The position numbers were made by a program, and so were the translations under genes. This document shows positions 135 through 3,386 of a stretch of 33,103 nucleotides of DNA, in pieces. The notes below the pieces were generated by a model. It was not told where the DNA came from. It ran no database searches and saw only the letters and a program-made list of their open reading frames with translations. This DNA comes from an uncultured Ectothiorhodospiraceae bacterium (GTDB lineage: Bacteria > Pseudomonadota > Gammaproteobacteria > UBA9214), in the NCBI GenBank assembly GCA_947258515.1, contig CAMYIO010000037.1, positions 1-33,103 on the forward strand. The letters run 5' to 3'. Numbering within the stretch: the stretch's first letter is position 1; every line of letters starts with the position of its first letter.

Positions 135-210
135 AGGCCAGTAGCTCAATTGGCAGAGCGACGGTCTCCAAAACCGTAGGTTGGGGGTTCGATTCCCTCC
201 TGGCCTGCCA
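135..210 (+). tRNA. trnW: tRNA-Trp (anticodon CCA, 168-170)
   Basis: Cloverleaf: acceptor AGGCCAG/CTGGCCT, anticodon stem ACGGT-CTCCAAA-ACCGT, GGTTCGATTC T-arm, genomically encoded CCA end. Canonical position between tuf and secE. Confidence 0.95.
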
Positions 211-2422: not shown

Positions 2423-2468
2423 AAATTCCGGGCGGGCCGCAGGCCCGTTCGTACAGGTTTGACGCTGC

Positions 2469-2519
2469 GATGTACAGGGTTGTACGAGCGTCGCGAAAGT
2501 CAGGGACGACATATAGCGA
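2469..2519 (+). repeat. Degenerate copy of rplJ-upstream hairpin repeat (copy 1)
   Basis: GATGTACAGGGTTGTACGAGCGTCGCGAAAGTCAGGGACGACATATAGCGA; same architecture as copies at 2642 and 2693 (GTAC-AGGGTT-GTAC hairpin, then TCGC...GTC AGG GAC...GCGA). Confidence 0.6.
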
Positions 2520-2537
2520 TTCCGGTTTAACCGGTGG

Positions 2538-2632
2538 CCGTCAAAGACCGCAGGTTGCGGGCGAGGTGATTGATCGCCGGCTTTAATTGTCCTGTCACTG
2601 ACAGGGTGGCCTGCGTAGAGGGTGGCGTCGAG
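2538..2632 (+). promoter_or_regulatory. Candidate L10 leader (L10(L12) autoregulatory RNA)
   Basis: TCAAAGACCGCAGG...CCTGCGTAGAGGGTGG: closing stem CGCAGG (2549-2554)/CCTGCG (2610-2615) with internal hairpins GGCGA...TCGCC (2560-2578) and CCTGTC-ACT-GACAGG (2591-2605); position upstream of rplJ. Confidence 0.7.
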
Positions 2633-2641
2633 ACAGTATTC

Positions 2642-2741
2642 GATGCACAGGGATGTGCAAGTGTCGCGTGAGGCAGGATGCCGGAAGCGACCGATGTACA
2701 GGGTTGTACACATGTCGCGTGAGGCAGGATGCCGGAAGCGA
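2642..2741 (+). repeat. Tandem two-hairpin repeat (copies 2 and 3, 51-nt period)
   Basis: Copy 2 (2642-2690): TGCACA-GGGA-TGTGCA hairpin plus TCGC-GTGA-GGCA-GGA-TGCC-...-GCGA. Copy 3 (2693-2741): TGTACA-GGGT-TGTACA plus the same second module. The 29-nt tract TGTCGCGTGAGGCAGGATGCCGGAAGCGA is identical at 2662-2690 and 2713-2741. Confidence 0.9.
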
Positions 2742-2855
2742 ACTGTCTTAAAGTCACATAAGCTGCACCGGTGCTGCTTGCCGGTGTGTAGTCAATAAAG
2801 TGGAAGCAACCGGTGGCCATGTTGCCGTCGGTGAATTCCTGATGAGGTAAACGCA

Positions 2856-3386
2856 ATGGCATTAACTCTTGATGAGAAAAAAGCTGTTGTTGCTGAAGTT
2901 TCTGAAGTTGCCAAAGGGGCCTACTCGGCCGTTGCCGCGGAATACTGCGGTCTGACAGTCGAGCAGCTGACGAGCCTGCGTATCAAGGCGCGCGAGGATA
3001 ATGTCTATCTGCGCGTCGTGAAGAATACGCTGGCAAGGCGTGCCCTGGAGAATACCGACTTTGCGTGCATGAGTGAACGACTGACCGGTCCGTTGATCCT
3101 GGCATTTTCCCGGGAAGATCCGGGTGCTGCGGCGCGTGTGGCCAAGGACTTTGCCAAGGGTAATGACAAGTTCCAGGTCACCATGCTGTCGGTCGGCGGC
3201 GAGTTGCTTGAACCGACAGATATCGACAAGTTGGCCAGGCTCCCGACCCGCGACCAGGCAATCAGTATGCTGATGTCCGTCATGCTGGCACCGACAGAGA
3301 AGTTTGTCCGTACCCTCAATGAGGTACCGGGCAAGCTGGTTCGTACGGTAGCCGCTATTCGCGAGCAGAAACAGCAGGCAGCTTAA
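2856..3386 (+). CDS. rplJ: 50S ribosomal protein L10
   Basis: MALTLDEKKAVVAEVSEVAKGAYSAVAAEYCGLTVEQLTSLRIKARE... Confidence 0.96.
   Translation: MALTLDEKKAVVAEVSEVAKGAYSAVAAEYCGLTVEQLTSLRIKAREDNVYLRVVKNTLARRALENTDFACMSERLTGPLILAFSREDPGAAARVAKDFAKGNDKFQVTMLSVGGELLEPTDIDKLARLPTRDQAISMLMSVMLAPTEKFVRTLNEVPGKLVRTVAAIREQKQQAA

Follow-up and report, generated by a model that had tools for sequence, protein, structure and literature searches.

The 33,103-nt stretch of DNA analysed here (the window) has the gene order rplA, a 433-nt gap, rplJ, and the gap contains, ahead of rplJ, a pair of 51-nt units in head-to-tail arrangement with a period of 51. These raise the question of whether they are a regulatory part of the leader of the ribosomal protein genes or a mobile repeat that has inserted there. 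The preliminary description of the region, made from the window alone, had reported a tandem two-hairpin repeat between the L10 leader and rplJ with an identical 29-nt core, and had proposed either a CsrA-responsive element or a dispersed intergenic repeat. The tandem repeat is present, with 51-nt units at 2641–2691 and 2692–2742, and both units share the core TGTCGCGTGAGGCAGGATGCCGGAAGCGA identically. The features of this region are:

2468–2520, forward strand: a third, decayed unit copy in the same leader (model E 8.6e-7)
2536–2625, forward strand: a leader-like block (GGCCGTCAAAGACCGCAGG ... CCTGCGTAGAGGGTG), taken as the L10 leader and kept in all relatives examined
2632–2636, forward strand: host hairpin, left arm GACAG, with the units in the loop; empty sites in relatives
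2641–2691, forward strand: unit 1 of the proposed mobile element, 51 nt (model E 1.5e-17)
2641–2661, forward strand: unit 1 hairpin 1, with loop AGGGAT at 2649–2654
2662, forward strand: unit 1 linker T
2663–2691, forward strand: unit 1 hairpin 2, with loop AGGAT at 2675–2679
2692–2742, forward strand: unit 2 of the proposed mobile element, 51 nt (model E 1.5e-14)
2700–2705, forward strand: unit 2 loop 1, AGGGTT, in which GGA is lost
2726–2730, forward strand: unit 2 loop 2, AGGAT, intact
2743–2747, forward strand: host hairpin, right arm CTGTC; empty sites in relatives
2856–3386, forward strand: rplJ (ribosomal protein L10), the downstream gene

The GACAG/CTGTC stem (2632–2636 / 2743–2747) surrounds the unit pair, the folding of which is beaten by just one of 200 shuffles (z −3.1). 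Loops 1 and 2 of unit 1 each match the A(N)GGAX rule established for RsmE with RsmZ, whose stem-loops share the closing pairs of the unit (PMC4005645), and the GGA-to-GGA distance in this unit is 22 nt. The decayed copy at 2468–2520 has 62% identity with both loops altered, and a related copy is present at the same position in three relatives (G014, G019 and G021). Part of the leader-like block matches the E. coli rplA-rplJ gap (a local match). The local likeness of window positions 2536–2625 to the E. coli L10 leader (CCGTCAAAGACCGCAG) is unreported by any Rfam model at E up to 5, and Rfam searches of the leader and the whole window reveal no leader or repeat family, the sole match being a tRNA. 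This tRNA gene is at the start of the window (135–207).

The rplJ leaders were compared across 19 genomes of the family. The leader-like block ends in CCTGCGCAGAGGGTG or near variants, and a small GACAG...CTGTC hairpin lies behind it in most of these genomes, with a loop that is occupied in a variety of ways. The loop is empty in G007, G008, G012, G015 and G018; G016 and G022 have unrelated sequence there, and in G010 it is deleted. There is one unit in G019, and there are two in both the window and G013. In G006, G009, G014 and G021 the units are split by a 42-nt element, G002, G003 and G005 have a unit within a unit, and G004 has a remnant, such that single, double, nested or partial units are found at the rplJ site in 11 genomes including that of the window. 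The E. coli rplA-rplJ gap is without such a unit. Unit 1 of the window and unit 1 of G013 are identical at 49/51 positions, the second units at 42/51, and the two G013 units with each other at 49/51, so that the second copies must have separate origins or have been homogenised independently. The 42-nt element (GAAGGTGAGACC...GGTCGAGAG...GGGCCA) is a separate sequence located directly after GGA in unit loops in the rplJ leaders of G021 (L169), G006 (L182), G014 (L170) and G009 (L177), and in G021 it occupies both loops of one unit.

The variable occupancy of the rplJ-site loop argues that the pair is an insert in a tolerant hairpin loop and not a conserved part of the leader. Very probably the pair is a tandem dimer of a small palindromic element, mobile but non-autonomous, that inserted in the loop of a small hairpin already present at this place; its status at rplJ is probably that of a tolerated passenger by which an apical hairpin is lengthened. 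The other reading of the locus is that a CsrA-responsive element or decoy was selected in place and tunes rplJL-rpoBC, with a CsrA dimer bridging the GGA loops of the leader. Judged from sequence, this would account for the high-affinity form and spacing of both loops of unit 1, and the check for csrA that had been suggested finds two copies in the genome of the window. Every occupied rplJ leader also has its unit in the sense orientation, although such uniformity would be expected from a shared ancestral insertion, and equally from function. However, the conservation in the leaders of relatives that a CsrA-regulated element would require is not seen, as five relatives have no unit and others have replaced or split it; unit 2 and the old copy have each lost a GGA while the stems persist, and E. 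coli has no such unit there. Selection in place is thus very unlikely, and with many copies elsewhere and the rplJ site empty in several relatives, there is no support for a CsrA element that belongs specifically to the rplJL-rpoBC leader.

Units of this type are widely dispersed. Searching 23 same-family genomes at the DNA level with the leader gave well above 100 short unit matches on unrelated contigs, and copies were further sought with a covariance model of the unit, for which counts are those among the best 150 or fewer candidates per genome. By this measure there are about ten copies in the genome of the window, part of them of a sister type with other stems; the unit is found in 22/23 genomes of the order and in 79/369 sampled Gammaproteobacteria genomes, with the highest copy number, 106, in one 2.4-Mb genome. 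Exact matches occur in named genomes including Methylomonas, Thiohalophilus, an Ectothiorhodospiraceae MAG and a tubeworm endosymbiont. Within the genome of the window the core TGTCGCGTGAGGCAGGATGCCGGAAGCGA itself has exactly two copies, even with three mismatches permitted, and a loose 21-mer pattern with three mismatches is at background (41 matches vs 47 in a reversed control). The many copies elsewhere and the empty rplJ sites favour the dispersed intergenic repeat that had been offered as the alternative, and numerous genome-wide copies at unrelated sites without conservation before rplJ, which had been named as the mark of a mobile repeat, are what is found.

Each unit consists of two hairpins joined by a single invariant T (T22, constant in 127 non-tandem copies). 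The thirteen stem pairs are Watson-Crick in 97% of cells (1653/1703; 131 distinct units), with repeated two-sided changes at pairs 1-21, 5-18, 6-17, 7-16, 24-50 and 33-41. Among the exceptions G.T outnumbers C.A by 33:9 (P 2.7e-4), an excess indicating that the GGA strand is the folded strand. The loop consensus in the 131 distinct units is C-A-N-G-G-A-N-G for loop 1 and C-A-G-G-A-N-G for loop 2, and in 110/131 both loops have the A(N)GGAX form on a stem closed by C-G. The family shares with small mobile palindromic repeats the maintenance of stems through paired changes, the large number of near-identical copies at sites unrelated to each other, and the existence of orthologous sites with and without the element (five rplJ leaders are empty). 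The C-to-T and G-to-A differences between the two window units had been taken as evidence for selection on the RNA. They fall at unit positions 6 and 17 and do preserve pairing, but T-A and C-G stem types are both common family-wide (84 and 39, respectively, among 131 distinct units), so that the swap represents two widespread variants and compensation in place at the window pair is rejected.

Many copies are located inside genes. Among 178 copies with flanks, 70 lie within long open frames (the definition of inside used here), although this count will be somewhat inflated by chance long open frames in G+C-rich DNA. Of these, 68 are stop-free in that frame, 68 have a length of exactly 51 nt (17 codons), and the length is a multiple of three in 69/70 intragenic vs 87/108 other copies (P 1.4e-4). 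The orientation is sense in 51 and antisense in 19, and a single reading frame (xDVQGCTSVAGGRMPGAT) accounts for 41/70 copies; this concentration of the sense excess in one frame points to the peptide. Real host genes include tgt, dnaQ, metE, metH, a valS-like gene, asnB, purL and hsdS, together with csoS2, a recB-type nuclease, a uvrD/recB-type helicase, pcnB, recG, valS and topA; hosts in both sets were checked by Pfam and solved relatives. The DnaQ host has exactly 17 additional residues in comparison with E. coli epsilon; as a caution, the tgt copy corresponds to a net gain of just 15 residues relative to the closest solved relative. The gene for an E1-type dehydrogenase of the isolate Methylomonas sp. 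LW13 also carries the unit. A Methylococcaceae MAG has it at the same point of this gene, in tandem copies (L133, L146), and the shared insertion point means that intragenic copies can be inherited. G348 contains several in-frame copies in one gene, as seen in the csoS2 (carboxysome) region and the adjoining recB-type genes (L206, L218).

Inserts that are bypassed by the ribosome are known in phage T4 gene 60 and in yeast mitochondria. Intragenic units could similarly be left untranslated, either skipped by the ribosome or excised from the RNA, and they resemble bypassed inserts in being near 50 nt with hairpins; essential genes among the hosts would also fit such an arrangement. Skipped inserts, however, need neither be stop-free in the frame of the gene (68/70) nor favour one frame (41/70), which makes this explanation highly improbable, and ribosomal bypassing of the intragenic copies is rejected on both grounds.

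The in-frame, stop-free insertion of the mobile element in real genes is the property of Rickettsia-type coding palindromes. In-frame palindromic inserts are best known in Rickettsia, where the palindromic elements (RPE), like the unit, are small palindromes found between genes and, in frame, inside genes for unrelated conserved proteins (PMC10969869), with scattered REP cases elsewhere (PMC3733652). RPE differ in being about 150 bp (some shorter) and in belonging to an alphaproteobacterium, whereas the unit has a fixed length of 51 nt, two hairpins, and hosts in the Gammaproteobacteria. We know of no sequence likeness between the two. REPs of the GTAG and CGTC families are also multi-copy short palindromes, located sometimes inside palindromes and in replication and repair genes (Di Nocera 2013, PMC3733652), but each is a single hairpin of 20–40 bp with GTAG or CGTC at one end, whereas the unit has two hairpins and no tag at the foot of the stem. 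It starts with YGAY and ends with GCGAC, and the reverse strand starts with GTCGC, such that there is no GTAG or CGTC tag 5′ of a single hairpin; in the C4 variant a CGTC lies one base in from the opposite end, which is the wrong side of the stem for a tag. Searches of the open-access literature with the DNA or peptide letters of the unit returned nothing, and an earlier description elsewhere is possible.

Units are commonly nested in other repeats or palindromes (e.g. GTCATTCCCGCG^CAGGCGGGAATCC, GGCGGCAGGGA^TGCCGCC and AGGCAGGA^TGCCGG, where ^ marks the insertion point), and are inserted also in REP hairpins and in their own kind. Flanking palindromes are more frequent than in shuffled pairings (≥7: 5 vs 0.8). 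A similar case, of REPs nested in palindromes, has been recorded (PMC3733652), and this REP paper is the only one on nested palindromes found in the open-access literature. Left junctions favour C-Y-T-G^ and right junctions ^C-R, and no target duplication is visible.

These properties suggest movement of the element in the form of a folded single strand, with no duplication of the target. Cutting and joining would be provided in trans, most likely by a Y1 (HUH, RAYT-like) transposase, and insertions would survive where harm is small, that is, in hairpin loops of leaders and palindromes or in frame in tolerant parts of proteins. Y1 transposases are present in 69/79 unit-bearing vs 172/290 other genomes, and csrA, for which the association is weak, in 74/79 vs 239/290; the Y1 association is the stronger of the two, both being raw counts that ignore genome size and relatedness. 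One genome (G260) with 15 unit copies has no Y1_Tnp match, and no csrA was detected in five of the unit-bearing genomes, some of which are incomplete.

Transposition alone does not account for loops that conform so exactly to the CsrA rule. Three of the eleven loop positions are variable and these are exactly N, X and X of A(N)GGAX (chance 1 in 165). The likeness to CsrA motifs that had been noted is thus real for the family, and stronger than first described, although at rplJ it is decaying (loop 1 of unit 2 is without GGA). As far as sequence comparison goes, no other result supports the CsrA idea as strongly as this fit, which is a property of the family and not of the leader. The hairpins of CsrB and RsmZ have the same A(N)GGAX loops, in hexaloop and pentaloop forms, on stems closed by C-G followed by U-A or G-C (PMC4005645), but they belong to one regulated sRNA gene, whereas the units are dispersed insertions, many of them antisense, with putative CsrA sites. 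Searches for CsrA together with REP in the open-access literature gave nothing relevant by title or abstract.

One explanation is that the whole family is a portable putative CsrA/Rsm site, with CsrA binding aiding its persistence or movement. This would fit the position-by-position agreement with A(N)GGAX, the closing pairs shared with RsmZ, the identity of the folded strand with the GGA strand, the 51:19 sense excess in genes and the slightly commoner csrA in unit-bearing genomes. However, antisense intragenic copies retain their loops as often as sense copies (18/19 vs 45/49 and 44/49), the sense excess is mostly that of one reading frame and so points towards the peptide, and csrA was not found in the five genomes above; the explanation is accordingly doubtful. 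Equally doubtful is its wider form, in which an element of two near-optimal CsrA/Rsm hairpins would be spreading through the Gammaproteobacteria and their essential genes, its copies acting as portable CsrA sites throughout the genome, rplJ included. The equal retention in antisense copies and the loss of GGA in unit 2 suggest that the constraint acts on the mobile element or its copying and not on control of rplJ.

Such a constraint could arise if the GGA loops are kept as DNA recognised by the mobilising machinery or by incoming elements, either as insertion targets or as transposase contacts. Units as well as the 42-nt element enter just after GGA in such loops (the latter in both loops of one G021 unit), GGA is among the most frequent left junctions (11/127), and the antisense loops are equally kept. 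This explanation does not predict variation at exactly N and X of the CsrA rule, and most insertions are not after GGA; it is a serious candidate that falls slightly short of being probable. Hairpins of the form C-A[NGGA]T-G with unrelated stems are numerous close to units but scarce in unbiased samples of 400 kb (1 and 6 hairpins), and no enrichment is claimed.

As a small mobile palindromic element of fixed length, the 17-codon insert in Gammaproteobacteria genes (dnaQ, valS, tgt) provides a clean system for the study of element movement and protein tolerance, and, with loops that obey the CsrA/RsmE rule, it allows a possible connection of a mobile repeat with a global RNA regulator to be tested in one binding assay. 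Its presence before rplJ also cautions that repeats in ribosomal-protein leaders are not to be taken as regulators. The genome of the window contains in addition a sister two-hairpin family (L072, L073, L074 and L076), with other stems and the same loops (CCTACAGGGATGTAGG ... GCAGGATGC), and in three cases its copies sit inside REP-like hairpins.
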